NCBI GenBank assembly: GCA_022486625.1
Contig: JAKVKH010000027.1
Span: 1 to 48,618, forward strand
Length of the DNA: 48,618 nt
Direction of reading: 5' to 3'
From: Butyrivibrio sp.
GTDB taxonomy: Bacteria > Bacillota > Clostridia > Lachnospirales > Lachnospiraceae
This document shows, piece by piece, positions 6,218 through 45,749 of this stretch. Positions within the stretch are counted from its first letter, which is position 1. Each line of letters starts with the position of its first letter. The notes under the pieces were generated by a model. The model was not told the DNA's origin, did no database searches, and saw nothing but the letters and a program-made list of their open reading frames with translations. The translations under genes were made by a program, and so were the position numbers.

Positions 6218-7198
6218 TTGAGTGAGGTACTGTCTCAGAACGAGATTGATAATCTGCTAGCAGCCCTCAGTACTGGCGAGCTGGATGTGGACCAGATGCA
6301 GAATGCGGATGACAAGAAGGTAAAGGATTATGATTTCCGTCGTCCTGCAAAGTTCTCTAAAGAGCATCTGCGTACACTGGAAATTATATATGAGCATTAT
6401 GGGCGGATTCTGTCAACGACATTACCTCTTTACCTGAGAAAAAATGTTACGATTACAGTGGCCAATTCGGAAACTGTTACCTATTCTGAATTCAGTAATG
6501 CACTTTCCAACCCGGTAATTCTTGGAATTGTAAATTTTCAACCGCTGCAGGGACAGATTATTCTGGAATTGCAGGCCAATATCGGGTTTTCATTTATTGA
6601 CCGTATGCTTGGAGGTGAAGGTACCAGCATTGACAGGCCGCGTCCATTTACGGATATCGAGATGCCGCTGATTGAAAAACTGGTGGGAATCTGTGTACAG
6701 CAGATGGTAGAACCGTGGGAGAATGTACTGGCAATTGATCCGCTGCTGGAGAGAATTGAGACTAATCCGCAGTTTGCGCAGGTAATTTCACCGACCGATA
6801 TGATCGCAATTGTTACACTCAATATCAAGATCGGCGATACGGAGGGACTGATGAATATCTGTCTGCCCTATTTTACATTGGAAAGCATTATGGATAAGCT
6901 CAATACCAAGTACTGGTTCTCCACAATGCAGAAGCATAATGATGAAAATTATGAAGATCATCTGGAATCACTGGTCAGAAGAGTAGATGTACCGATTAAG
7001 GCAATTTTAGGAAAATGTCAGGTATCTGTAAATGACTTTGTTCATTTGCAGCAGGGGGATATCATAAGGCTCGACAATCATGTAAATACGGAAATGCATG
7101 TTTATGTCGGAAATATCGATAAGTTTACGGCGATGCCGGGGACATCGAAAGATAAATACGCCGTCAGAGTAACGTCGGTGATTAGAGAGGAGGAATAG
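6218..7198 (+). CDS. fliM: Flagellar motor switch protein FliM
   Basis: FliM is the C-ring subunit that binds phosphorylated CheY and FliG. The 326-residue protein starts at a TTG behind GAGAGGTGATC. The N-terminal CheY-binding peptide LSQNEIDNLLAAL is at residues 5-17. The middle CheC-like domain (about 40-225) contains the FliG-binding MLGGEG loop, and the C-terminal SpoA domain (about 245-320) follows. Upstream fliL and downstream fliY are close-packed. The TTG start is supported by the fit of the conserved N-terminus. Confidence 0.96.
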   Translation: MSEVLSQNEIDNLLAALSTGELDVDQMQNADDKKVKDYDFRRPAKFSKEHLRTLEIIYEHYGRILSTTLPLYLRKNVTITVANSETVTYSEFSNALSNPVILGIVNFQPLQGQIILELQANIGFSFIDRMLGGEGTSIDRPRPFTDIEMPLIEKLVGICVQQMVEPWENVLAIDPLLERIETNPQFAQVISPTDMIAIVTLNIKIGDTEGLMNICLPYFTLESIMDKLNTKYWFSTMQKHNDENYEDHLESLVRRVDVPIKAILGKCQVSVNDFVHLQQGDIIRLDNHVNTEMHVYVGNIDKFTAMPGTSKDKYAVRVTSVIREEE

Positions 7199-7202
7199 GA
7201 GC

Positions 7203-8387
7203 ATGGACGGAATGCTATCGCAGGATGAAATTAACGCGCTCCTGAACGGTATGGATACATCCGGGACTCCGGCCGATGGAGGATCAGACGCTGGGGGGAG
7301 TCCCGCTGCATCTGAGGCGGGGGCTGCAGGAGAGATTGATGAATCGCTTCTGACAGATGTGGAAAGAGATGCAATCGGTGAAGTTGCCAATATCAGTATG
7401 GGATCTTCTGCAACAACACTGTATTCACTTGTTAATCAGAAAGTAAATATTACCACTCCTGTTGTAGAACTGGCCAATTGGGAATCTACAACAGTCAATT
7501 ATGAGAGACCCTGTGTTTTTATTCAGATCAAATATACGGTAGGTCTTGACGGAACTAATATCCTGATTTTAAAAGAACACGATGTCATGGTCATCACCGA
7601 TCTGATGATGGGCGGTGACGGGACCAATACAGAGGGAGAGATCGGGGAACTGCAGCTGTCAGCAATTTCAGAGGCAATGAACCAGATGATGGGTGCTTCT
7701 GCAACTTCACTTTCTACGATGATTGGAAAAAAGGTGGATATCAGCCCGCCACAGGCGACACTTCTGAATATGGTGACTCAGAATCCGTCAGAAATTGCTG
7801 AATTTCTGGCAGGTACTTTTGTGAAAATTTCCTTTAAGATGCAGATTGCCGATCTGGTAGATTCCATGCTGATGCAATTATACCCGATTGACTTTGCAAA
7901 GAGTTTGTACGATACTTTTATTACAAGCACCAAAGAAGATCAGTTGGCAGTTCCACCGCAGCCCGCTCCCGCGCCTTCACCACAACCGCAGCCGGCAGCG
8001 CAGCCGCAGATGATGGCGCAGCCGCAGATGATGGCGCAGCCGCAGGTGATGGCGCAGCCGCAGATGATGGCACAGCCGCAGATGATGCAGAGCATGAATG
8101 TGCAGCCGGCACAGTTCCAGACTTTCAGTCCGGATATGCAGACCATGGCGGCCGGAGAAAACATTGGGCTGATCAAGGATGTACCGCTTGAGGTAACCGT
8201 TGAGCTTGGCAGGACAGCTAAACCGATTTCTGATATACTGGATTTTGCTCCGGGAACCATCATTGAACTGGATAAGGTAGCAGGCGAGCCTGTTGACGTG
8301 CTCGTTAATGGTAAGTTTGTTGCAAAAGGTGAAGTAGTAGTTATTGAAGAGAGCTTTGGTGTACGTGTAACCGAAATCATTAAATAA
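7203..8387 (+). CDS. fliY: Flagellar motor switch phosphatase FliY (CheC-like plus FliN domain)
   Basis: FliY combines a C-ring FliN domain with a CheY-P phosphatase domain. An N-terminal CheY-binding peptide, MLSQDEINALLNGM, sits at residues 4-17. The CheC-like domain covers about 40-235 and keeps both phosphatase helices, seen as EVANISMG and SEAMNQMMG. A Pro/Gln/Met-rich linker (about 240-305) contains five near-identical six-residue units. The SpoA/FliN domain is at about 325-394, with VPLEVTVELGRTAKPISDIL. Length is 394 residues, near the family norm. It starts four bases after fliM and precedes cheY. Confidence 0.95.
   Translation: MDGMLSQDEINALLNGMDTSGTPADGGSDAGGSPAASEAGAAGEIDESLLTDVERDAIGEVANISMGSSATTLYSLVNQKVNITTPVVELANWESTTVNYERPCVFIQIKYTVGLDGTNILILKEHDVMVITDLMMGGDGTNTEGEIGELQLSAISEAMNQMMGASATSLSTMIGKKVDISPPQATLLNMVTQNPSEIAEFLAGTFVKISFKMQIADLVDSMLMQLYPIDFAKSLYDTFITSTKEDQLAVPPQPAPAPSPQPQPAAQPQMMAQPQMMAQPQVMAQPQMMAQPQMMQSMNVQPAQFQTFSPDMQTMAAGENIGLIKDVPLEVTVELGRTAKPISDILDFAPGTIIELDKVAGEPVDVLVNGKFVAKGEVVVIEESFGVRVTEIIK
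7998..8087 (+). repeat. Five tandem 18-bp repeats inside fliY
   Basis: The unit GCGCAGCCGCAGATGATG occurs five times head to tail at 7998-8087, with single-base changes in unit 3 (A to G) and unit 5 (G to A). Each unit encodes AQPQMM (AQPQVM in unit 3). Since 18 is a multiple of three, gain or loss of units would only change the length of the linker between the CheC-like and FliN domains. The GC content is higher than in the surrounding gene. Confidence 0.95.
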
Positions 8388-34684: not shown

Positions 34685-34703
34685 ATAAAAGCGAAAACAG
34701 CGG

Positions 34704-34732
34704 TTGACTTAATAAGTTTATAGAAATATAAT
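34704..34732 (+). promoter_or_regulatory. Strong predicted sigma-A promoter upstream of the hydrogenase operon
   Basis: TTGACT at 34704-34709 and TATAAT at 34727-34732 are exactly 17 bases apart in AT-rich DNA. The expected transcript start (about 34738-34740) coincides with the beginning of a 9-bp hairpin. It would drive the metal-sensor gene and the ech-hyp genes. Confidence 0.65.
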
Positions 34733-34740
34733 AATCTGTG

Positions 34741-34767
34741 GTACTTGAGTCGGTTCGGCTCAAGTAC
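34741..34767 (+). promoter_or_regulatory. Perfect 9-bp inverted repeat at the first promoter's start site
   Basis: GTACTTGAG at 34741-34749 pairs with CTCAAGTAC at 34759-34767 across a nine-base GC-rich centre. No T run follows, so a terminator for the upstream gene is unlikely. It may be an operator or a 5' protective hairpin. The known CsoR/RcnR pattern (a short G/C tract between TA-rich arms) is not matched. Confidence 0.45.
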
Positions 34768-34808
34768 TCGTTGCGTGTACACAAATATCACTTGATGTAT
34801 TTTATGCC

Positions 34809-34832
34809 CATTTGTGATATAATTAACAAATG
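34809..34832 (+). promoter_or_regulatory. Extended -10 promoter inside an inverted repeat, upstream of the metal sensor
   Basis: TGATATAAT at 34815-34823 is a perfect extended -10 element. It is enclosed by CATTTGT (34809-34815) and ACAAATG (34826-34832), a perfect 7-base inverted repeat. A protein bound there would block the promoter. TGATGTATT is also repeated directly at 34793-34801 and 34831-34839. No good -35 box lies at 17 bases; TTGATG at 34792-34797 is 20 away. Confidence 0.5.
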
Positions 34833-34885
34833 ATGTATTACTGACTGACAGATTTTATACTGGCAGATCAGCAGGGAGAGACACG

Positions 34886-35248
34886 ATGAAGCAGGAGCAT
34901 GGACACGTGCATGAACATGCAGACGAACATGCAGACGAACATGAACATATGCATGAACATGAGCACATGCAGGAACATCATCATGATCCGGAAGATATGA
35001 AATCAATTGTAAACCGACTGGCAAGGGCGATCGGACATCTGGAATCCGTTAAAAGAATGGTGGAAGATGACCGCGACTGTACGGAAGTACTGGTTCAGCT
35101 TGCGGCTGTTCGGTCTGCGATAAATAATTGCGGTAAGGAGATCCTGAAAGAGCACATCAGCCACTGCATCGTAGATGCAGTACAGCAGGGAGATGATGAG
35201 GCGATTAAGGAACTGAATGATGCAATTGATAAATTTATGAAGGCCTGA
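34886..35248 (+). CDS. CsoR/RcnR-family metal-sensing repressor with His-rich N-terminus
   Basis: The 120-residue protein joins a His-rich head (13 His among residues 5-33, also two Met and many acidic residues) to a CsoR-family four-helix domain (about 36-120) with ARAIGHLESVKRMVEDDRDC. Metal ligands are Cys65, His90 and Cys94; spacings of 25 and 4 match CsoR and the nickel sensor InrS. His33 lies 32 residues before Cys65, the same distance as the extra N-terminal His of InrS and RcnR, which favours nickel or cobalt over copper. It starts behind AGGGAGAG and precedes echA by 22 bases. Nickel-responsive control of the hydrogenase operon is inferred. Confidence 0.88.
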   Translation: MKQEHGHVHEHADEHADEHEHMHEHEHMQEHHHDPEDMKSIVNRLARAIGHLESVKRMVEDDRDCTEVLVQLAAVRSAINNCGKEILKEHISHCIVDAVQQGDDEAIKELNDAIDKFMKA

Positions 35249-35270
35249 GGGTCTGAAAGGGGTGTATAAC

Positions 35271-37199
35271 TTGCCTATTATTAATGTTGTGGAATTCCTA
35301 ATTGTATTCCCGTTCATCATGGCCGTGATTGTCGGTTTCATGAAAAAGGCAAATCATGCAAGAAGTGCTGTCGTAATCGGTGGTGGTTTTATCATCATGG
35401 CTGCATCAATTTATGTTGCAGTAAAAACACTGTGCGGCGCAGATCAGGGGGAACGTTTCCTGACAGAAACAAAAGGAGCGGATATCCTCATCATGGCAGG
35501 AGAAGCATTTCTGCTGTGTCTTGTTATTTTTCTGAGTATCAAATATAAGAAGTATTATTGTATTCTGCTGTCTGCAGCAGGAACACTCCCGATTCTGTGG
35601 ATGGATCTTTCCGGAAACGGAGTTGAGGGGCAGATGCATATCAGAGTGGATGCGCTTGCAGCCATTATGTATCTGATTGTTGGTGTGGTGGGTACATTGA
35701 TCTGTATGTATGCATGCGGATATATGAAGGACTACCATCATCATCATACAGATGTTCAGAATCGTTCCAGTTACTTTCTTGCAATGCTGTTTGTATTCCT
35801 GGGAGCAATGTTCGGTCTGATTTCATCTGATAATCTTTCATGGATTTTCTTCTTCTGGGAGATTACAAGTGTTGTATCCTTCCTGCTGATCGGATACACA
35901 AGAACACAGGAAGCAGTGAACAACTCCTTCCGTGCATTATGGATGAACCTTCTCGGCGATGTTGCATTTGCAGGCGGTATTCTGTTCTGTACGTTTGCAC
36001 TGCAGATCAGTAACTTAAGTCAGCTGACCGCACTGGATCAGAATGCAGTACCTATGGTTCTGGCGCCGGTTACCCTGTTTGCGTTTGCTGCACTGGTAAA
36101 GAGTGCACAGATGCCGTTCTCAAGATGGCTCCTGGGCGCCATGGTAGCTCCTACACCGAGCAGTGCGCTGCTGGATTCTGCAACAATGGTTAAGGTCGGC
36201 GTATACATGCTGCTGCGTCTGTCACCTCTGATGGCCGGTAATATCACCGGTATCATGGTAACTGTTGTCGGCGGATTCACCTTCTTTGCAACTTCCCTTC
36301 TGGCAATTTCCCAGAGCGATGGCAAAAAGGTGCTTGCATATTCTACAATTTCAAACCTTGGTCTGATTACAGCCTGTGCCGGTGTCGGTCAGCCTGAAGC
36401 AGTATGGGCAGGAACAATGCTGATGCTGTTCCACGCAGTATCGAAATCTCTGCTGTTCCAGACTGTCGGTGATATCGAGAACTGCATGGGCAGCCGTGAC
36501 ATTGAAGACATGCACGGTCTGATCATCAAACTGCCTCGTCTTGCATTTGTCATGATCATCGGTATCTGTGGTATGTTCATGGCTCCGTTCGGAATGCTGG
36601 TTGCCAAGTGGGCAGCACTTCGTTCCTTCGTAGACACAGACAGCGTATGGCTGGTTCTGTTCCTGGTATACGGCAGTGGCAGTACACTGTTCTACTGGGC
36701 AAAGTGGCTGGGCAAGATCTGCACAGTCATTCATCGGTCAGAAGCCATCAAGGATATTACACATAAGAGTGAATATATTTCCATTGTTCCGTTGACCACG
36801 ATGATTGTTGTAATGTGCTTTGCATTCCCGTGGATGTCAGATCACATGATTCAGCCGGTTCTGGAAGAGACGTTCAGCAGCAGCATCCCGAACGTTATCG
36901 GAGGGTCCGATGTTCTTGTTATGCTGATAATGCTGGCAATGCTTTTTATCGTACCGATCGGCAGCCGTGTGCTTGCAATCGGTAAGAAGAACAAGATGAC
37001 CATGGGTTATATTGCCGGTGTCAATACCGGTGATGACCGTCACTTCACTGACTCCTTCGGTCAGCCGAAAGCCGTTTATATGGCTAACTGGTATATGGAA
37101 GATTATTTCGGAGAGAAGAAGCTATTGTGGCCTGTAATCTGGGTTGCCGCAGTAATCGTGGTAATAATGCTGATTCTCGGTATCGGAGGTGCATTATGA
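35271..37199 (+). CDS. echA: Ech-type energy-converting hydrogenase membrane subunit A (NuoL-like)
   Basis: EchA is the antiporter-like membrane subunit thought to move ions in the Ech complex. About 642 residues start at the TTG at 35271 behind AAAGGGGTG; a GTG at 35262 overlaps that site and is less likely. Some fourteen or more hydrophobic helices are visible. The proton_antipo_M core contains FFFWEITSVVSFLLIGYTR (with the conserved Glu) and FSRWLLGAMVAPTPSSALLD. It is first in the ech gene order and overlaps echB by four bases. Confidence 0.93.
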   Translation: MPIINVVEFLIVFPFIMAVIVGFMKKANHARSAVVIGGGFIIMAASIYVAVKTLCGADQGERFLTETKGADILIMAGEAFLLCLVIFLSIKYKKYYCILLSAAGTLPILWMDLSGNGVEGQMHIRVDALAAIMYLIVGVVGTLICMYACGYMKDYHHHHTDVQNRSSYFLAMLFVFLGAMFGLISSDNLSWIFFFWEITSVVSFLLIGYTRTQEAVNNSFRALWMNLLGDVAFAGGILFCTFALQISNLSQLTALDQNAVPMVLAPVTLFAFAALVKSAQMPFSRWLLGAMVAPTPSSALLDSATMVKVGVYMLLRLSPLMAGNITGIMVTVVGGFTFFATSLLAISQSDGKKVLAYSTISNLGLITACAGVGQPEAVWAGTMLMLFHAVSKSLLFQTVGDIENCMGSRDIEDMHGLIIKLPRLAFVMIIGICGMFMAPFGMLVAKWAALRSFVDTDSVWLVLFLVYGSGSTLFYWAKWLGKICTVIHRSEAIKDITHKSEYISIVPLTTMIVVMCFAFPWMSDHMIQPVLEETFSSSIPNVIGGSDVLVMLIMLAMLFIVPIGSRVLAIGKKNKMTMGYIAGVNTGDDRHFTDSFGQPKAVYMANWYMEDYFGEKKLLWPVIWVAAVIVVIMLILGIGGAL

Positions 37200-38068
37200 T
37201 GACAGCTAATAATATTATTTTTGCAGTACTTTTCATTGTACTGGCACCGCTGATCGGTGGTTTCTTAGATGGTGTGGACAGAGTCTTTACTGCCAGAATG
37301 CAGGGAAGACAGGGCCCGCCTGTACTTCAGCCCTTTTATGATGTATATAAGCTGCTGCATAAGCAGACAACAGTTGTAAACAGTATCCAGATTCTGTTTA
37401 TCATCAGTTATACGATATTTACGATCTTTACCGGCTGCATTTTCTTTGCAGGCGGAGACCTTCTGCTGGTATTCTTCTCTTTGTCCATGGCAGAGGTAAT
37501 GCTGATTCTGGCTGCGTTTTCTACCAACGCTCCGTACAGCTATATGGGTACACAGCGTGAACTGGTGCAGATGATGTCCTATGAGCCGATGACACTGCTT
37601 CTTGCAATCGGATTTTATCTTGCAACTTCCAGCTTCAAGGTCGGACATATTGTTGAATCCGGTATTCCGGCGATCTGCCAGCTTCCAGGTATGTTTATCG
37701 CATTTATCTTTATCCTGATCATCAAACTGAGAAAGTCTCCGTTTGATATCAGTACTTCACATCACGCACATCAGGAAGTGGTGAAAGGTATCACAACGGA
37801 TATTTCCGGACAGAACCTTGCGCTGACAGAGATCACAGAATGGTATGACAACGTGCTGATGCTTGGTTTTGTGGCACTGTTCTTCATTACCAAGAATCCG
37901 GTCAGCTATGTATGGGCTGTCATTGCATGTCTGGTGGTTTACTTTATCGAGACACTGATTGATAATGTATTCCCTCGTGTGAAATATATGACAATGCTGG
38001 TATCCGCATGGGTTGTGACACTGGTATTTGCCGGTGTGAACATGTTGATTCTGTCGCTGATTAAATAA
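37196..38068 (+). CDS. echB: Ech-type hydrogenase membrane subunit B (NuoH-like)
   Basis: EchB is homologous to complex I NuoH and anchors the hydrophilic arm. The ATG at 37196 overlaps the echA stop as ATGA and follows GGAGGTG; the frame opens earlier only inside echA. The 290 residues have about eight membrane helices and the family motifs RMQGRQGPPVLQPFYDVYKL and RKSPFDISTSHHAHQE. A following Met codon is an equally possible start. Confidence 0.94.
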   Translation: MMTANNIIFAVLFIVLAPLIGGFLDGVDRVFTARMQGRQGPPVLQPFYDVYKLLHKQTTVVNSIQILFIISYTIFTIFTGCIFFAGGDLLLVFFSLSMAEVMLILAAFSTNAPYSYMGTQRELVQMMSYEPMTLLLAIGFYLATSSFKVGHIVESGIPAICQLPGMFIAFIFILIIKLRKSPFDISTSHHAHQEVVKGITTDISGQNLALTEITEWYDNVLMLGFVALFFITKNPVSYVWAVIACLVVYFIETLIDNVFPRVKYMTMLVSAWVVTLVFAGVNMLILSLIK

Positions 38069-38094
38069 TAAAAAAGAGAGGTACAGGCGAAACC

Positions 38095-38739
38095 ATGAAA
38101 ATTTCTAAATCCCCATGGGTGCTCCATTATGATGGATCCAGCTGCAATGGCTGTGATATTGAAGTACTGGCAGCGATGACACCTTTATATGATGTGGAAC
38201 GTTTTGGTATTATCAATACAGGAAATCCGAAGCATGCAGATATTCTGCTGCTGACAGGCGGTGTAAATGCACAGACAGCTCCCGTTGTCAGACAGCTCTA
38301 TAAGCAGATGCCTGATCCGAAGGTTGTCATTGCCTGCGGAATCTGTGCGTGTGACGGTGGTATTTTCAAAGAATGCTATAACATTCTCGGTGGTTCTGAC
38401 AAAGTAGTTCCGGTAGATGTATATGTACCGGGATGTGCAGTAAGACCGGAAGCATTGATTGAAGGTGTGGTCAAGGCACTTGGCATTCTGGATGAGAAGA
38501 GAGAAAAGATGAAACAGTCCATGAAGCAGGGCTATTGCACTGTAGATTATCATAAGATGGCTGTTCATATGACAGAAGATGATTATGATCCTGCAACGCA
38601 GTATGATGCAGTTCTGACAGAGGAAGCACTTCGTGAGCAGGCAGAAGCCAAGATCAAGGCAACTGCTAAACCGGCTCCGAAGCCGCCTGTTCAGGCAGCA
38701 GCGCCTGCAGCAAATGCACCGAAAGGAGGACAGGCCTGA
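38095..38739 (+). CDS. echC: Ech-type hydrogenase small subunit C (NuoB-like, [4Fe-4S])
   Basis: EchC is the electron-transferring small subunit next to the [NiFe] site. The [4Fe-4S] ligands are probably Cys17 and Cys20 (SSCNGCDIEVL), Cys81 (IACGICACDGG) and Cys114 (VPGCAVRPEAL). The core ends near residue 145. An added C-terminal part of about 70 residues follows, rich in Met/Tyr/Asp and finishing in an Ala/Pro/Lys tail (KPAPKPPVQAAAPAANAP); this is unusual for the family. The stop overlaps echD by one base (TGATG). Confidence 0.93.
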   Translation: MKISKSPWVLHYDGSSCNGCDIEVLAAMTPLYDVERFGIINTGNPKHADILLLTGGVNAQTAPVVRQLYKQMPDPKVVIACGICACDGGIFKECYNILGGSDKVVPVDVYVPGCAVRPEALIEGVVKALGILDEKREKMKQSMKQGYCTVDYHKMAVHMTEDDYDPATQYDAVLTEEALREQAEAKIKATAKPAPKPPVQAAAPAANAPKGGQA

Positions 38740-39071
38740 TGAATACAGAATATAAGGTTGTTGAGGCGGGTCATGTACTTGAGGAAATGCAGCAGCTTAG
38801 GGCTGACGGATATCACCTGATCCAGCAGTGTGCAACGAGAATTGATCATGGTTATGAACTGATTTACAGTTTCGGCAGAGAACTTGAAGCACAGAATCTG
38901 AAGATCACGCTGGATGAAGATTCTTCCATTTCGAGTATTACGAGCATTTTCCCATGTGCATTTGTATATGAGAATGAAATGCATGATTTATTCGGTGTGG
39001 ACATTAAAAATATTGTGCTTGATTATCATGGCAATCTTTATCGTACCGCAATCAAGACACCGTTTAAGTAA
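38739..39071 (+). CDS. echD: Ech-type hydrogenase subunit D (NuoC-like)
   Basis: EchD is the small NuoC-type subunit of the hydrophilic arm. Its 110 residues contain ELIYSFGRELEAQNL and the family signature FPCAFVYENEMHDLFGV. No cofactor ligands are seen, as expected. It sits between echC and echE in the standard gene order. Confidence 0.9.
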   Translation: MNTEYKVVEAGHVLEEMQQLRADGYHLIQQCATRIDHGYELIYSFGRELEAQNLKITLDEDSSISSITSIFPCAFVYENEMHDLFGVDIKNIVLDYHGNLYRTAIKTPFK

Positions 39072-39090
39072 CTAGTGGGAAGGAGTATAT

Positions 39091-40170
39091 ATGTCAAAAA
39101 GAAGTGTGATTCCGTTTGGACCACAGCATCCCGTACTGCCGGAACCGATTCATCTGGATCTGGTGATGGAGGACGAGAAGGTTGTAGAAGCAATCCCTTC
39201 CATCGGCTTTATTCACAGAGGCCTTGAGAAGCTGGTTGATAAAAAAGATTTCAATGAAATGGTTTATGTTGCAGAGCGTATCTGCGGTATCTGTTCATTA
39301 GGACATGGTCTTGGCTACAGTGAAGCAGTTGAGCATGTCATGGATATTGAGGTTCCGTCCCGTGCAAAATATATCCGTACCATTCTGTCAGAGATGAGCC
39401 GTATTCATTCTCATATTCTGTGGCTTGGTCTTCTGGCTGATGGATTTGGATTTGAAAGCCTTTACATGGAGAGCTGGAGACTTCGTGAGCAGGTTCTGGA
39501 TATGTTCGAGGAAGCAACCGGTGGCCGTGTTATTTTCTCAATCATGAAAATCGGTGGTATCCGTAAGGATATCAGCAATGAAATGCTCGCAGATTTCCAG
39601 AAGAGATTTGATAAGATGGAAGAGGAACTTAAGGATATTGCCAAGACGTTCCTTGATGATGTTGCAGTACAGTCCAGACTTCGTGATGTCGGATTTCTGA
39701 CAAAGCAGCAGGCAGAAGATCTTGGATGCTGCGGACCGTTCCTTCGTGCCAGCGGTGTAAAGAGAGATATCCGTTCTACCGGATATGAAGCATATGGTGA
39801 ACTGGATTTTGAACCCTGCTACAGTGAGATCGGTGACAGCTATGCACGTACAGAAGTTCGTATCAAGGAAATTTTCCAGGCATTTGATCTGATCCGTCAG
39901 GCAATTGCAAAAATTCCGGCAGGAGAGATTGATGTTCCGGTTAAGGGATTCCCGAATGGCGAATATCTTACCAGAATTGAGCAGCCTCGTGGAGAAGCAG
40001 TTTATTTTGTAAAGGCAAATGGAAGTAAGTTTATTGACCGTATGAGAGTCCGCACCCCCACCTTTGCAAATCTTGCAGGTCTGACAGAGACGCTTAAAGG
40101 CTGTGATCTTGCAGATGTTCCGATGCTGGTTCTTACGATTGATCCATGTATCAGCTGCACAGAGAGATAA
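39091..40170 (+). CDS. echE: Ech-type hydrogenase large subunit E ([NiFe] site, NuoD-like)
   Basis: EchE binds the [NiFe] centre where protons are reduced. The four Cys ligands are present: Cys65 and Cys68 in RICGICSLGHGLGY, and Cys353 and Cys356 in DPCISCTER. The 359-residue protein ends directly after that last motif, so there is no C-terminal peptide for a maturation protease to remove. All four ligands argue for a working hydrogenase rather than a complex I-type NuoD. GGGAAGGAG precedes the start. Confidence 0.96.
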   Translation: MSKRSVIPFGPQHPVLPEPIHLDLVMEDEKVVEAIPSIGFIHRGLEKLVDKKDFNEMVYVAERICGICSLGHGLGYSEAVEHVMDIEVPSRAKYIRTILSEMSRIHSHILWLGLLADGFGFESLYMESWRLREQVLDMFEEATGGRVIFSIMKIGGIRKDISNEMLADFQKRFDKMEEELKDIAKTFLDDVAVQSRLRDVGFLTKQQAEDLGCCGPFLRASGVKRDIRSTGYEAYGELDFEPCYSEIGDSYARTEVRIKEIFQAFDLIRQAIAKIPAGEIDVPVKGFPNGEYLTRIEQPRGEAVYFVKANGSKFIDRMRVRTPTFANLAGLTETLKGCDLADVPMLVLTIDPCISCTER

Positions 40171-40174
40171 GATG

Positions 40175-40223
40175 CTGTACCGGATTCGGTATCAGAGTTT
40201 CTAATTAAGCGGGATGTTTCCGC
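40175..40223 (+). promoter_or_regulatory. Two small hairpins between echE and echF
   Basis: The 69-base gap holds TACCG-GATT-CGGTA at 40178-40191, extended by CTG/CAG, and GCGG (40209-40212) with CCGC (40220-40223). The second is just upstream of an AAAGGAC ribosome binding site. Neither has a T run. They may adjust mRNA stability or echF translation. This is the largest gap inside the ech genes. Confidence 0.3.
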
Positions 40224-40239
40224 GATAAAAGGACAAATT

Positions 40240-40707
40240 ATGGCGATTATAAATTTTAATAAAACAGTACTTCATAATCTGATCTCCAAGCCTGCAACAA
40301 GACTTTATCCGTTTGAAGAGCGTGTTTATCCTGAGAGAACCAGAGGACATGTTGAAAATGACATGGATGTATGTGTACTTTGCGGATTATGCTCAATCAA
40401 GTGTCCGACACATGCAATTACAGTTGATAAGGCAGCAAAGACATGGTCGATCCGTCCGATGAGCTGCATTCAGTGCAGATGTTGTGTGGATAACTGCCCG
40501 AAGAAATGTCTGTCTATGGCACAGAAGTTTCAGGAGCCAGGACCGGAGAAGGTGACAAAGACTTTCCATCAGACAGAAAAGGCAATTGCAGCACAGGAAG
40601 CACTTATGAAGGCGGCAAAGGAAAGGGCTGCTGCTGCAGCTGCTGCAAAGGCGGCAGCCGCAGGAACAGCTACACCTGCAGCACCGGTGCAGAAACCGAC
40701 AGAGTAA
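40240..40707 (+). CDS. echF: Ech-type hydrogenase ferredoxin-like subunit F (NuoI-like, 2x[4Fe-4S])
   Basis: EchF brings electrons from ferredoxin to EchC. Two complete cluster motifs are seen: Cys45, 48, 51 and 55 (CVLCGLCSIKCP) and Cys76, 79, 82 and 86 (CIQCRCCVDNCP). The NuoI-like core ends near residue 115. A tail of about 40 residues follows, almost all Ala, Lys and Pro (AAAAAAAKAAAAGTATPAAP), similar in kind to the tail of EchC. It is 155 residues, slightly longer than usual because of that tail. Confidence 0.93.
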   Translation: MAIINFNKTVLHNLISKPATRLYPFEERVYPERTRGHVENDMDVCVLCGLCSIKCPTHAITVDKAAKTWSIRPMSCIQCRCCVDNCPKKCLSMAQKFQEPGPEKVTKTFHQTEKAIAAQEALMKAAKERAAAAAAAKAAAAGTATPAAPVQKPTE

Positions 40708-40718
40708 TGTGAGGGAGC

Positions 40719-43145
40719 ATGACTGCTGAAATTACAGTAACAGGTGCGGTACAGGGAATCGGGTATCGGCCATTTGTAGCAGAACTTGCAACTGAATATG
40801 GTTTGCATGGAAATGTGCGTAACAGCGGAGGAATCGTACGTATTCTTGCAGAAGGCAGTGAGTCGGTGATCTGTGCATTTACACAGAAGCTGAGAACTGC
40901 TTATCCTGCGGGAGCGATGGTCATCAGTGTTACTTGCAGAAAATGCAGTGAAGACCTGATAAAGTCAGATGCGTTTGCATCTGACTTTATTATTATTGAG
41001 AGCGAACAGGGAATTCTGTCAGAGGAACTCCCTGTATTTCCGCCTGATCTTGGAATCTGTGATGACTGTATGCGCGAAATGCAGGATCCGGCAGACAGGA
41101 GATATGAGTATCCCCTGATCAGTTGTGCTTCATGCGGACCCAGATACAGTATTCTGAAATCGCTTCCCTATGATCGGGAGGCGACAACCATGCAGCACTT
41201 TGAAATGTGCCCGACCTGCAGCATGGAATATGGAAAAGGCCGCAGGAGACATGCGCAGACAATTTCCTGCCATGACTGTGGCCCGCAGATTATTTTTGAA
41301 GGCCGAGTGGGAGAAAATACTGCAAAGGTGATCCGGCTGGAGAAGGCGGATGCTATGGCAGCTGCAATCAGAATTATTAAAGATGGCGGTATCATTGGCA
41401 TAAAGGGAATCGGTGGCTATCAGCTGGCTGCGACACCGTTTGCAGGAGAAACGGTGGACCGTCTCAGGAAGCTTAAAGGGCGTGAAAAAAAGCCGTTTGC
41501 GGTGATGTTTCCGGATCTGGAAACGGTCAGAACATATGCATCTGTTAGTACCGCGGAGCAGCGGTTACTGCAGTCATCTGCAAGGCCAATTGTACTTCTG
41601 CCTGCAAAACAGGAAGAGAATGTCCCGGTTTTTTCAGCAGAAACCTGTGGAGAAAGTAGGTTTATCGGTGCGTTTCTGCCTGCAACAGGCTTGCACAGGA
41701 TGATTCTGAAGGAAACGGGGCCACTAATTGTTACAAGTGCAAATAATTCAGGAGAACCGATGCTCGTTGCAGACGATGTTTTTCGTAATCGATACCTGAC
41801 AGAAACAGATGGCATGCTGTATCATGAGCGCCAGATTCTGACACCCCTGGATGATTCGGTGATGTTTTGCGTTTCTTCGGAAGATGGTGGATTCATGTCC
41901 TGTCTGATCCGCCGGGCGAGAGGATATGTTCCGCTTCCGGTGTTTTTGCAGACAGATTTGAAATCAACTGTTTTTGCGGCAGGGGGAGATCTGAAGGGTG
42001 CATTTGCACTTGGACGCGGTTCACGTATCATCTTGAGTCAGTTTCTGGGTGATATGGCGGATTATGGCGTTCAACAGAATTACAGGTCAGAACTGCAGCG
42101 TATGGAACGTATATTTGGAGCAGAGCCGCAGCGTGTTGTCTGTGATATGCATCCGGGTTATTATTCTTCAGCACTTGCAACAGAATATGCGAAGGAGCAT
42201 CATTTGCCTGCTCCGATGCGGATTCAGCACCATCATGCGCATATTGCATCAGTGATGGCAGAGCATGGCCTTACATCGTGCATCGGTGTTGCATTTGACG
42301 GAACTGGTTATGGAACCGATGGTCAGCTCTGGGGCGGAGAGTTCCTGCACTGCAGCCACAGCAGGATGCAGCGTATGGGACATCTGCAGTATGTCACTTT
42401 GTGTGGCGGTGATCGTGTATCTGCAGATGCACGGCTTGCGGCTGCCTGCTATGAATATGCATCAGAGGGGACAACCCTATACAGTGAACCTGATGAAAGT
42501 CGCAGACGCCTGACAGAAGCCGCACTTCAAAATCATATTAATACAATTCAGAGTTCAAGTATGGGACGATTGTTTGATGCAGCGGCCTGTGCACTGGAAA
42601 TCCGGAATGCCAATTCCTATGAGGGTGAATGTGCGATTGCGCTTGAAAATGCAGCCGCGTCTTATCTGCAGCAGAATCCCGGAGCGCTTACACGACTGAT
42701 TGAAGAAATCAGTGCAGTCAGTCAGACCGGCCAGACGCATGCGGACGCTCTGGAACATGAACCTTTCCTGCGTATCTTCAGGGAAGAAGCGGATGGCACG
42801 CTGCAGGCAGATCAGATTACTTTTTTGCAGGAGCTGCGGAGAAAGATGCAGTCCTGTAAAGGTATAGAAGCATCAGAATACAGAAATCTGCAGGGAAAGA
42901 TGGCGCTTGAGTTTCACACGGCGATTATCTGTACGACAGTACGGATGTGCGAAGAAATCAGAACACGTACAGGAGAAAATACCGTTGCCTTGAGCGGAGG
43001 GGTATTTGCCAACCGCATTCTTCTGCAAGGTTGCACAGGTTACTTACGAAAGAAAAAATTTATGGTATACTGTAATGAATCTGTTCCGTTTAATGATGGA
43101 GGAATCAGCCTGGGACAGGCGTTTCTGGCAGGAATGGATGACTGA
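40719..43145 (+). CDS. hypF: Carbamoyltransferase HypF ([NiFe] hydrogenase maturation)
   Basis: HypF makes the cyanide ligands' precursor by moving a carbamoyl group from carbamoyl phosphate to HypE. The 808 residues contain an acylphosphatase domain (1-90, VQGIGYRPFV), two zinc fingers (CDDCMREM with CASCGPRYS, then CPTCSMEY with CHDCGPQ), a YrdC-like domain (about 205-390, including SANNSGEPML) and a Kae1-like domain with IQHHHAHIASVMAEHG and ALSGGVFANRIL. It follows echF after 11 bases, which ties maturation to the hydrogenase genes. Confidence 0.96.
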   Translation: MTAEITVTGAVQGIGYRPFVAELATEYGLHGNVRNSGGIVRILAEGSESVICAFTQKLRTAYPAGAMVISVTCRKCSEDLIKSDAFASDFIIIESEQGILSEELPVFPPDLGICDDCMREMQDPADRRYEYPLISCASCGPRYSILKSLPYDREATTMQHFEMCPTCSMEYGKGRRRHAQTISCHDCGPQIIFEGRVGENTAKVIRLEKADAMAAAIRIIKDGGIIGIKGIGGYQLAATPFAGETVDRLRKLKGREKKPFAVMFPDLETVRTYASVSTAEQRLLQSSARPIVLLPAKQEENVPVFSAETCGESRFIGAFLPATGLHRMILKETGPLIVTSANNSGEPMLVADDVFRNRYLTETDGMLYHERQILTPLDDSVMFCVSSEDGGFMSCLIRRARGYVPLPVFLQTDLKSTVFAAGGDLKGAFALGRGSRIILSQFLGDMADYGVQQNYRSELQRMERIFGAEPQRVVCDMHPGYYSSALATEYAKEHHLPAPMRIQHHHAHIASVMAEHGLTSCIGVAFDGTGYGTDGQLWGGEFLHCSHSRMQRMGHLQYVTLCGGDRVSADARLAAACYEYASEGTTLYSEPDESRRRLTEAALQNHINTIQSSSMGRLFDAAACALEIRNANSYEGECAIALENAAASYLQQNPGALTRLIEEISAVSQTGQTHADALEHEPFLRIFREEADGTLQADQITFLQELRRKMQSCKGIEASEYRNLQGKMALEFHTAIICTTVRMCEEIRTRTGENTVALSGGVFANRILLQGCTGYLRKKKFMVYCNESVPFNDGGISLGQAFLAGMDD

Positions 43146-43174
43146 AAGATTTTTTGGAAAGGCAGGATTTTACG

Positions 43175-43393
43175 ATGTGTGTTGCATTACCCGGAAGAGT
43201 GGTCCGTGTAGACGGACATAGAGCTGAAGTTGATTTCAGCGGAAATACAGTAACGGCAGAAGCAGGACTGGTCAGAGTTAAACCCGGAGACAGGGTGCTG
43301 GTTCATGCAGGGTGCATTATCCAGACCATGACAGAGAAGGATGCAGACGAACTGGAGGAACTGTTCAGGGAGGTTGAAGATATCGATGTCTGA
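43175..43393 (+). CDS. hypC: Hydrogenase maturation chaperone HypC
   Basis: HypC holds iron with HypD during cofactor assembly and delivers it to the large subunit. The ATG at 43175 is chosen because it places the essential Cys at position 2 (MCVALPGRVV); the upstream frame would bury it. Seventy-two residues, OB-fold-like, ending in an acidic helix. It overlaps hypD by eight bases. Confidence 0.94.
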   Translation: MCVALPGRVVRVDGHRAEVDFSGNTVTAEAGLVRVKPGDRVLVHAGCIIQTMTEKDADELEELFREVEDIDV

Positions 43394-44429
43394 TTTTGAG
43401 AAGATCATCAGTTTCCTGAGGGAATATGACGGACCGGATGTGCGGCTGATGGAAGTCTGCGGAACGCATACAGGCGCAATTGCCCGAAATGGAATTCCTT
43501 CCATGCTTTCGCCGCATATTCATCTGATTTCAGGACCGGGATGTCCTGTCTGTGTGACTGTTACGGCAGTGATTGACCGTCTGGTTGAGCTGGCAGAGAA
43601 AGAGAATACGGTGGTTCTGACCTTCGGAGATCTGATCCGTGTGAAGGGAACTACAAAGAGCCTTGCGGATGCAAAGGCAGATGGCGGACACGTGGAAATG
43701 GTATATTCACCACTTGATACGGTCAGGATGGCACAGCAGGATCCGTCAAGAGAGTATGTGTTTGCAGCTATCGGTTTTGAAACGACAACACCGGTTTATG
43801 CAATGGTACTTCAGGAGGCGATTGAAAAAAATATTCATAATCTGAAACTTCTGACGTCACTCAAGACCATGCCGAATGTCATCCGCTGGGTCTGTGAGAA
43901 TGGCGGAAATATTGATGGTTTTATTGCACCGGGGCATGTATCTGTGATCACGGGAAGCCGTGCTTATGAGGAACTGTCACAGGAATTTCAGATTCCGTTT
44001 GTGGTCGCAGGTTTTGAAGGACCGCAGCTTTTGGCAACCATTTATGCACTGACCGGTATGAGAGGTCATGCAGGGGTCAGAAACCTGTACAGAGAGGCCG
44101 TTACACCGGAAGGAAATCCGGCTGCACAGGAAATGGTAAACCGTTATTTTGAGCCTTCTGATGCCTCCTGGAGAGGAATGGGAACGATTGCCGGTTCAGG
44201 GATGACCCTGAGGAAAGAATATGCGCAGTATGATGCCGGAAGCTACGGACTTGATGAAGATCATATGCCGGCTGGCTGCAGCTGTGCATCAGTATTGACG
44301 GGTAAAATTTCACCTGTGCAGTGTCCTCTTTTCGGCAGGAGCTGTACACCTGATAATGCCCATGGTGCCTGCATGGTTTCCACGGAGGGCAGCTGCTATA
44401 ACTATTTTATTTCCGGACGAAAGGATTGA
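43386..44429 (+). CDS. hypD: Hydrogenase maturation iron-sulfur protein HypD
   Basis: HypD is the [4Fe-4S] scaffold on which Fe(CN)2CO is built with HypC and HypE. Starting at the ATG at 43386 inside the end of hypC, behind GGAGG at about 43369, it has 347 residues. Conserved motifs are MEVCGTHTGAIARNGIPS, SGPGCPVCVT and, near the C-terminus, the cluster Cys residues in AGCSCASVLTG and SPVQCPLFGRSC. hypE follows within two bases. Confidence 0.95.
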   Translation: MSDFEKIISFLREYDGPDVRLMEVCGTHTGAIARNGIPSMLSPHIHLISGPGCPVCVTVTAVIDRLVELAEKENTVVLTFGDLIRVKGTTKSLADAKADGGHVEMVYSPLDTVRMAQQDPSREYVFAAIGFETTTPVYAMVLQEAIEKNIHNLKLLTSLKTMPNVIRWVCENGGNIDGFIAPGHVSVITGSRAYEELSQEFQIPFVVAGFEGPQLLATIYALTGMRGHAGVRNLYREAVTPEGNPAAQEMVNRYFEPSDASWRGMGTIAGSGMTLRKEYAQYDAGSYGLDEDHMPAGCSCASVLTGKISPVQCPLFGRSCTPDNAHGACMVSTEGSCYNYFISGRKD

Positions 44430-44431
44430 CG

Positions 44432-45433
44432 ATGAAGATAACAATGGCACACGGAAGCGGCGGAGAATCCACTTCTGAGCTGATCAGGCAGATATTTGCA
44501 AAGCATTTTCATAATGAAGTACTGGACCGGATGGAGGATTCGGCAATTGTACCTGGAAACGGCAGAATTGCGATGACAACGGACAGTTTTGTTGTCACAC
44601 CATATTTTTTTCCGGGCGGAGATATCGGAAGGCTGAGCGTATGCGGAACGGTAAATGATCTTCTGATGAGTGGCTCTGTTCCGAAATATCTGACCTGCGG
44701 ATGTATTCTGGAGGAAGGTATGGATATGGATGACCTGGACAGAATCATTGCATCCATGGCAGAAACGGCAAGAGAGGCCGGTGTAGAGATCATTACCGGA
44801 GATACCAAGGTTGTTGAAGCCAGAACCGGTAAGGGCGGCCTGATGATCAATACTGCAGGGGTCGGTTTTGCAAGAGATGGGGCGCAGTGCGAACCTTCAC
44901 AATGCGCAGATTCAGATGCCGTGATCCTTTCAGGTACTCTCGGAGAACATCATGCGGCCATTCTTGGAAGCCGTATGGGAATTCATAACAATATTGTTTC
45001 GGATGCTGCACCTCTTGTGGAGATGGTGAACGGACTGATGAATGCCGGAATTCACGTGCATGCGATGCGGGATGTGACGAGAGGCGGATTGGGAACAGTT
45101 CTTAATGAGTTTGCATCTGCTTCTGCCTGTTGTATGAATCTGCAGGAAAAAGATCTTCCGGTATCTGATCAGGTACGTGATTTCTGCGGAATTCTGGGAC
45201 TTGATCCGATGTATATGGGGAATGAAGGCAAGATGGTAGCAATTGTTCCCAAAGAGGAAGAAGAGGCGGCAGTAAAGATCATACGCGGAAGCAGATACGG
45301 AGAGAATGCGGCAGTGATCGGTCATGTGGAAAAAAACGCAGATACAACGCCTGCCGTTGTGCTTCATACACAGATCGGAGGCAGAAGAGTAATTGGATTA
45401 ATGTATGGAGAAGGTCTTCCAAGAATCTGCTAA
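44432..45433 (+). CDS. hypE: Hydrogenase maturation protein HypE (cyanide-forming dehydratase)
   Basis: HypE dehydrates the carbamoyl group on its C-terminal Cys to a cyano group. The 333-residue protein begins MKITMAHGSGGESTSELI (ATG at 44432; a TTG at 44426 is possible) and ends LPRIC with the required C-terminal cysteine. The ATP-binding AIRS fold shows MTTDSFVVTPYFFPGGDIG and RDVTRGGLGTVLNE. It is the last hyp gene; hypA and hypB do not follow. Confidence 0.96.
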   Translation: MKITMAHGSGGESTSELIRQIFAKHFHNEVLDRMEDSAIVPGNGRIAMTTDSFVVTPYFFPGGDIGRLSVCGTVNDLLMSGSVPKYLTCGCILEEGMDMDDLDRIIASMAETAREAGVEIITGDTKVVEARTGKGGLMINTAGVGFARDGAQCEPSQCADSDAVILSGTLGEHHAAILGSRMGIHNNIVSDAAPLVEMVNGLMNAGIHVHAMRDVTRGGLGTVLNEFASASACCMNLQEKDLPVSDQVRDFCGILGLDPMYMGNEGKMVAIVPKEEEEAAVKIIRGSRYGENAAVIGHVEKNADTTPAVVLHTQIGGRRVIGLMYGEGLPRIC

Positions 45434-45440
45434 AATATGT

Positions 45441-45460
45441 TATACTGTACTGTACAGTAC
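45441..45460 (+). promoter_or_regulatory. -10 box followed by a perfect 14-base palindrome, upstream of the mecA pair
   Basis: TATACT at 45441-45446 matches a -10 box in five of six positions. Directly after it, GTACTGTACAGTAC at 45447-45460 is a perfect palindrome covering the expected transcript start. No convincing -35 box lies 16-18 bases upstream, as would suit an activated or regulated promoter. The site begins eight bases after hypE. Confidence 0.45.
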
Positions 45461-45527
45461 GACTGAGTTATATGGGGTATCAGTGGCATTGTATCTGTAC
45501 AGGGGTAAGGAAAGAGGAATTGTCTGG

Positions 45528-45749
45528 ATGAGGGAAGTGGAATTATATCGTACAGCAGATGAGAAAAAGAAAGAACAGCTGCTTGATATGCTGATAAAGG
45601 AGAGAATCTCCTATCTTGAGAAGCAGGAAAAAATTCCGATTTTCAAGAGAAAAGAGTATGATGGCAGTCCGGTTATGTATATCATCTGTGTGGATGAAAT
45701 GCAGAAAGATTCTGCAGATGTTGTATTGAAGGGATTTGATGTTGCATGA
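45528..45749 (+). CDS. Small hypothetical protein coupled to mecA
   Basis: The likely product has 73 residues, from the ATG at 45528 behind AAAGAGG. The frame is open back to 45405, inside hypE, but that part looks non-coding. It is rich in Glu and Lys, with a helical start (EKKKEQLLDMLIKERISYLE) and a short beta-like end. No Cys pair, signal or membrane segment. It overlaps mecA by four bases (ATGA). I do not recognise a family; a partner or regulator of MecA is a guess. Confidence 0.6.
   Translation: MREVELYRTADEKKKEQLLDMLIKERISYLEKQEKIPIFKRKEYDGSPVMYIICVDEMQKDSADVVLKGFDVA

Follow-up and report, generated by a model that had tools for sequence, protein, structure and literature searches.

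The 48,618 nts of Butyrivibrio DNA analysed here (the window) encode a CsoR-family protein with a His-rich N-terminal tail, whose relatives in Lachnospiraceae form a subfamily that, judged by sequence, is distinct from copper CsoR. The protein is likely a nickel sensor and is predicted, with the confidence of an even bet, to bind a G-tract site at the −35 element of importer promoters when nickel is scarce and to activate them. No NikR is found in the 200 genomes of the family searched (NikR_C, 0/200, whereas 5 of 14 control genomes have it). A recurrent unnamed regulator together with a readable operator makes the control of nickel, which the hydrogenases and acetyl-CoA enzymes of these anaerobes need, testable with one protein and one promoter. 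A His-tailed CsoR-type regulator of nickel uptake in Lachnospiraceae is not described in the literature searched, which consisted mostly of titles and the openings of abstracts and covered subscription papers thinly.

Translation confirms the 13 His in the first 33 residues claimed by the first-pass annotation (positions 5, 7, 9, 11, 15, 19, 21, 23, 25, 27, 31, 32 and 33, of 16 His in the whole protein), as well as the CsoR-family core, which PF02583 covers over residues 38–116 at 98.4 bits (Pfam cut-off 22.8). An AlphaFold2 model has three helices, 35–60, 65–101 and 104–119, and pLDDT is below 50 for tail residues 1–29. With this model Foldseek returns members of the family, InrS (5fmn) first at E 2.4e-5 and copper CsoR 4m1p level with it at 2.5e-5. 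By sequence the best solved match is again InrS (E 6.8e-22), followed by 6ahx (6.5e-20) and 4m1p (6.3e-18), and the NCBIfam equivalog cut-offs for RcnR (40.8 bits against 138), FrmR (45.8 against 133) and RicR (59.2 against 175) are all missed. The Cys65-His90-Cys94 set is present as annotated, and His33 is 32 residues before Cys65, the spacing that the accessible part of PMC4235346 gives for His21 and Cys53 of InrS.

Table 1. Features of the csoR-ech-hyp region, with positions in the window
Feature	Positions	Strand	Basis
csoR-ech promoter: TTGACT, 17 bp, TATAAT	34704..34732	+	read from sequence
Leader hairpin: arms GTACTTGAG and CTCAAGTAC of an inverted repeat, immediately downstream of the −10	34741..34767	+	sequence, folding
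csoR: His-tailed CsoR-family (DUF156) protein, InrS-like, 120 aa	34886..35248	+	translation, PF02583, alignment, model, tree
His-rich tail, residues 1–33, 13 His, predicted disordered	34886..34984	+	translation and model
His33, candidate ligand at the W position	34982..34984	+	His at W in 52/55
Cys65 (X), with Asp64 just before it	35078..35080	+	Cys in 54/55, Asp in 54/55
His90 (Y) to Cys94 (Z)	35153..35167	+	each kept in 53/55
echA-F-type membrane hydrogenase genes	35262..40707	+	translations; NCBIfam
Hydrogenase large subunit, both CxxC pairs kept (RICGIC, DPCISC)	39091-40170	+	translation
hypF, hypC, hypD, hypE	40719..45433	+	HMM matches

Members of the subfamily are found in 52 of the 200 family genomes, that of the window included. 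Outside the window genome the 200 genomes give 55 strong matches (E ≤ 4.9e-24), and a weaker set starts at E 2.6e-21. The strong matches are carried by 54 fetched stretches, one of which (L066) has two copies, of which one was counted. Ligand counts are for 55 sequences, that of the window and one from each of the 54 loci. The weaker set provided the copper-type controls: 2 of 40 are without a CsoR match, which leaves 38, and 5 of these are not parsed by the ligand motif, which leaves 33. On these counts the ligand pattern, annotated as nickel-type, is indeed of the InrS type and conserved. At the W position His is present in 52 of the 55 and in none of the 33 controls, 32 of which have Arg; Cys at 65 is kept in 54, His at 90 in 53 and Cys at 94 in 53. 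The residue before the first Cys (the A position, Asp64 in the window protein, where copper CsoR has Tyr) is Asp in 54/55 and in 0/33 controls, all 33 of which have Tyr. At least six His stand in the 40 residues N-terminal to the fold in 47/55, as against 0/33 controls, which have 0–3. Glu109 stands opposite InrS Glu98 in the alignment by our own reading, and this B position is E or D in 44 of the 55. Two tail-less members, L088 and L090, lack ligands, both with Tyr in place of His90 and L090 with Phe in place of Cys65 as well, and are probably no longer sensors of the nickel-type kind.

In a tree of 99 rows, midpoint-rooted, with eight long branches (InrS among them) and an unsettled bootstrap, a branch with 97/98 support separates the strong set, InrS and 6ahx from 38 of the 39 copper-labelled rows with three copper-type PDB chains, control L133 being between. 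6ahx is titled copper-sensing, yet it groups with InrS, a caution that the ligand pattern does not prove the metal. According to what could be consulted of PMC7055735, metal choice is not settled by sequence likeness, and the available portion of PMC4235346 has InrS also binding copper and zinc tightly and keeping nickel without His21.

The genes beside the regulator differ too. A copper ATPase is within 450 bp in 31 of the 38 copper-type controls, on stretches somewhat shorter than those of the subfamily, and in 0 of 54 subfamily loci; homologues with the same tail beside copper pumps, which had been named as the finding that would speak against nickel, were not seen within this distance. (In L042 a copper ATPase is 5 kb off, beside that locus's own copper-type CsoR.) Genes for ech-hyp, CODH/ACS, lar or cbiMQ are nearby in 9/54 subfamily loci (L039, L043, L050, L053, L067, L072, L073, L086 and L087) and in 0/38 controls (p 0.009, with a weak, 30%, CooC-like match in L042 excluded). 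A search of the fetched stretches for marker proteins found no such marker near the other 45. Within the genus, where 46 of 61 sampled genomes have a strong match, echA is directly downstream, at 18–43 nts, in all 29 fetched loci, and in eight other genomes the regulator gene is 1.8–2.4 kb from cbiM. The linkage to nickel enzymes that had been annotated is supported for the genus and for part of the family loci, the nine above. HypD over its cut-off is present in 16 of 52 subfamily genomes, compared with 15 of 148 others (p 0.0013).

Among the best 80 of at least 576 named loci, a set biased towards Butyrivibrio and whose ech loci are mostly from that genus, EchA is nearby in 17, CODH in 3, CbiM in 1 and an NBP35-type ATPase in 11. 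Nine of these best 80 of at least 576 have a weak (23–26%) copper-ATPase match 1.1–1.5 kb upstream; it probably resembles the PEGL-type P-ATPase of the window, without CPC. In 10 of 54 family loci an NBP35/Mrp-type ATPase (PF10609) is on the same strand and at most 160 bp downstream; it is directly after the regulator in L042, L044, L049, L051, L057, L058, L060, L064, L074 and L075. An ATPase-type HypB of the Mrp/MinD family is mentioned in the accessible part of PMC7055735, and by analogy a role of this neighbour in metal insertion is possible. Checks by HMM covered 32 distinct neighbour proteins. Many neighbour names were assigned by eye and are provisional, as are those of LarE (below its Pfam cut-off) and LarB (matching only a general family).

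In the window itself, csoR precedes echA by the annotated 22 nts if TTG at 35271 is the start of echA and by 13 nts if it is GTG at 35262. The NCBIfam matches of the ech products are to complex I or hydrogenase subunits, most of them below equivalog cut-offs, and Ech is a name presumed from likeness. HypF scores 641 bits (cut-off 466.1) and HypC 52.4 (48), HypD matches PF01924 and HypE has AIRS domains. The reported absence of HypB holds for the window and fails for the genome, which has hypA-hypB on contig C35 at 6914–7942 (PF01155, PF02492); this HypB is without a His-rich N-terminus. The window genome (G000) has two hypA genes over the Pfam cut-off, C9:6783–7112 and C35:6920–7249, and the latter stands between an operator-like site and hypB. 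It also has a separate Tyr-type CsoR on C36, on a stretch that encodes a CPC-type ATPase. Two genes before csoR in the window is a P-type ATPase (PF00122, 31126–33534) with PEGL and no CPC, and the 114-aa ORF at 45405–45749, between hypE and mecA, is without a Pfam match.

The first-pass annotation had the regulator acting on 34700–34850. That region holds a good promoter and a hairpin, and no G-tract operator is seen in it (nor any run of four C or G at 34690–34885); cbiM, elsewhere in the genome, is the better-supported target. By eye, no G-tract is present before csoR-ech in the window leader, in the genus leaders or in the csoR-echA gaps of L039, L187 and L192. The −10 block TAGAAATATAAT is found again in many genus leaders. 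A hairpin just after the −10 is also present in 27 aligned genus leaders (from L098–L125; 27 of 30 were used, with L097, L118 and the window excluded), with at least three arm sequences and varied loop lengths. The palindrome was considered as an operator and rejected on the ground that its arm sequence and spacing differ between clades, which suits RNA better. RNAalifold on the MAFFT alignment of the leaders, however, gave 0 pairs, and when the longest helix of each of 28 folded leaders was compared with mononucleotide shuffles the signal was weak in many, that of the window included, so that the leader hairpin is only suggestive. Rfam gave no gathering-score match in the window and none in the nine loci searched; a sub-threshold match to sR5 (E 0.0035) in the csoR region was taken as chance.

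It is at the importer gene that the operator-like site is most regular. Directly against the −35 of cbiM, the gene for a nickel/cobalt importer, is a G-tract palindrome, AACCCCC-n-GGGGGCTTG, in 29/29 readable genus loci, the degenerate copy of the window genome among them (of 45 CbiM matches in the genus 30 were fetched, one of them, L251, with only 15 nts upstream), and a −10-like hexamer is 16–18 bp after the −35. These 29 comprise 14 from ech-type genomes, 8 with csoR near cbiM, 4 with csoR elsewhere and 3 without a subfamily match, the last being from drafts that are 60–84% complete. In several genera a C-tract/G-tract palindrome is just before the promoter between csoR and cbiM or CODH. 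Across the family CCCCCN{1,4}GGGGCTTG is present in 27 of 200 genomes, its reversed control in 2 of 200, and the site is carried by 17/52 subfamily genomes compared with 10/148 others (p 1.3e-5). Twenty-eight of these loci were read, the second sites of G049, G132, G133, G136 and G195 being left out. Directly after the site, 12 of the 17 site-bearing subfamily genomes encode part of an importer: CbiM in 6 (by likeness), a NikB-type permease in 3 (of which two pass the nickel cut-off of NCBIfam), a family-5 solute-binding protein in 2 and FecCD in 1. In G010, G090 and G136 a methyltransferase is next (followed in G010 by a lipoprotein gene, solute-binding by eye), and in G071 and G133 the gene after the site is of neither kind. 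Most sites in non-subfamily genomes are, by eye, outside promoters, an exception being that of G142, before CbiQ. Similar-looking methyltransferases are first after the site in L310, L312, L320 and L327, and in L312 the reading runs on into a domain of the AstE/AspA type. That these methyltransferase loci serve a nickel-chelator pathway is a guess.

Sites within about 400 bp of csoR, in counts that include some sites inside genes, are present in 8/54 family loci (2.2 expected from mononucleotide shuffles), in 17 of the best 80 of at least 576 named loci (4.9 expected) and in 9/38 copper controls (1.7 expected). The types differ, ..CCCCC..GGGGcTTG for the subfamily as against ATACCC..GGGTAT for the copper type. 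Copper-type sites come directly after TTGACA or TTGCAA in 7 of 14 listed cases; the −35 elements beside subfamily sites are poor by eye.

In the window genome the site before cbiM (C16:13510) reads AACCCCC-GCCCC-GGCTTC, the left half intact and the right broken, with TATAAT 16 bp after the −35. CCCCCN{1,5}GGGG has 0 matches in this genome, and AACCCCC-N5-GGCTT has one exact match in its 3.57 Mb, at cbiM. When as many as two mismatches are allowed, 47 matches are found forward and 47 in reverse, where the reversed control has 37 and 48. One of the two-mismatch matches, ATCCCCCGGACAGGGTT, runs into TTGACG-N17-TACAAT before hypA-hypB on C35 and overlaps the end of the upstream ORF. No comparable site was seen by eye at genus hypA promoters in 29 loci, most of which are of a hypA type unlike that of C35, so that the comparison is unfair. 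The putative G-tract importer regulon is thus only suggestive for the window genome, while for the genus and the subfamily it is well supported.

From all this we infer that nickel is the effector, that the protein binds DNA and activates where it might have repressed, and that its tail has a role. Metal-free protein would sit on the G-tract site against the −35 and turn nickel-importer promoters on. Nickel, held by His33, Cys65, His90 and Cys94, would cause the protein to leave DNA and import to drop, with the disordered tail probably buffering nickel beside the sensor site. As csoR is first in the ech-hyp row, the supply of sensor would track how much nickel enzyme needs filling; elsewhere the regulator is with cbiMQ, CODH/ACS or lar genes. 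The wider proposal, more tentative and rather more likely to fail than to hold, is that Lachnospiraceae make up for the missing NikR with an InrS-like protein that has a His tail and works in reverse, the metal-free form turning importers on at a G-tract that touches a weak −35 and nickel turning them off. With its gene inside ech-hyp, CODH/ACS and lar operons, one protein would gauge demand, buffer nickel and set import. If true, a positive role at import genes, little known for InrS, would extend to a bacterial family, and nickel supply would be tied to the Ech hydrogenase.

The most serious alternative, though an unlikely one, is a classical nickel-released repressor, whose metal-free form would repress importer and/or nickel-enzyme operons and be derepressed by nickel. 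InrS, RcnR and DmeR act so at export genes according to the part of PMC7055735 available, the site is near enough to the −35 for blocking, and some loci (e.g. L082, L230 and L233) have a G-tract site before csoR itself; a tetramer beside the −35 could also repress, by analogy with InrS, which represses nrsD. Such a protein would, however, let import rise with nickel, csoR-ech shows no site upstream, and the poor −35 elements suit activation. A metal-free activator released by nickel agrees better than a derepressor with a site placed upstream of a −35 that is poor by eye, with importers as targets and with NikR lacking. Doubtful to a greater degree is a cobalt or mixed cobalt/nickel sensor connected with CbiMQO and the supply of B12. 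Pfam has CbiM as its cobalt-uptake family, the protein may carry cobalt, and RcnR and DmeR sense both metals (PMC7055735, in the text to hand), but the regulator also has ech-hyp, CODH/ACS with CooC, and LarC as neighbours, nickel ABC permeases pass the NCBIfam cut-off in 2 site-bearing genomes, and the ligand set is InrS-like and not the HCHH of RcnR/DmeR.

That the protein chiefly stores nickel for the hydrogenase or serves it as a chaperone, and regulates little or nothing, would suit the 13-His tail, a place ahead of ech-hyp and co-transcribed with it, and the lack of a His-rich region in HypB; conservation of the sensor ligands and fold, and operator-like sites that track the subfamily across genomes, make it improbable. 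Least probable, and rejected on ligands and gene context, is an ordinary copper sensor with a His-rich tail. The Cys-His-Cys set is common to copper CsoR, and 6ahx has its copper-sensing title; against this are the change of Tyr to Asp in all but one of the 55, the lack of a copper ATPase within 450 bp in 54/54 loci and the separate Tyr-type CsoR on C36 with its CPC-type ATPase. The reading preferred here remains that of a probable nickel-released activator of import.

Several known systems share parts of such an arrangement. InrS of Synechocystis, a nickel sensor of the CsoR/RcnR family (PDB 5fmn), has 6 tail His as against the 13 here and is from another phylum; here the gene is inside nickel-enzyme or importer gene rows. 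Copper CsoR shares the PF02583 fold, the Cys-His-Cys core and G-tract type operators, but differs in its Tyr ahead of the Cys, the Arg at W, a low number of His, a copper ATPase beside it and an operator that is often between the −35 and −10. NikR would have the same role, that of controlling nickel import by nickel supply, if the proposal is true, and belongs to another protein family. RcnR and DmeR are of the same family and nickel-responsive (from the partial text of PMC7055735), and differ in their HCHH fingerprint, their operators and, for RcnR, the model score given above. His-rich HypB likewise has a His-rich N-terminal nickel store (PMC7055735, same partial text), and is a GTPase with no DNA-binding role; the HypB of the window genome is without such a region. 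Near the regulator in L067 and L087 are genes for LarC-like (nickel insertion) proteins that carry a very long stretch rich in His.
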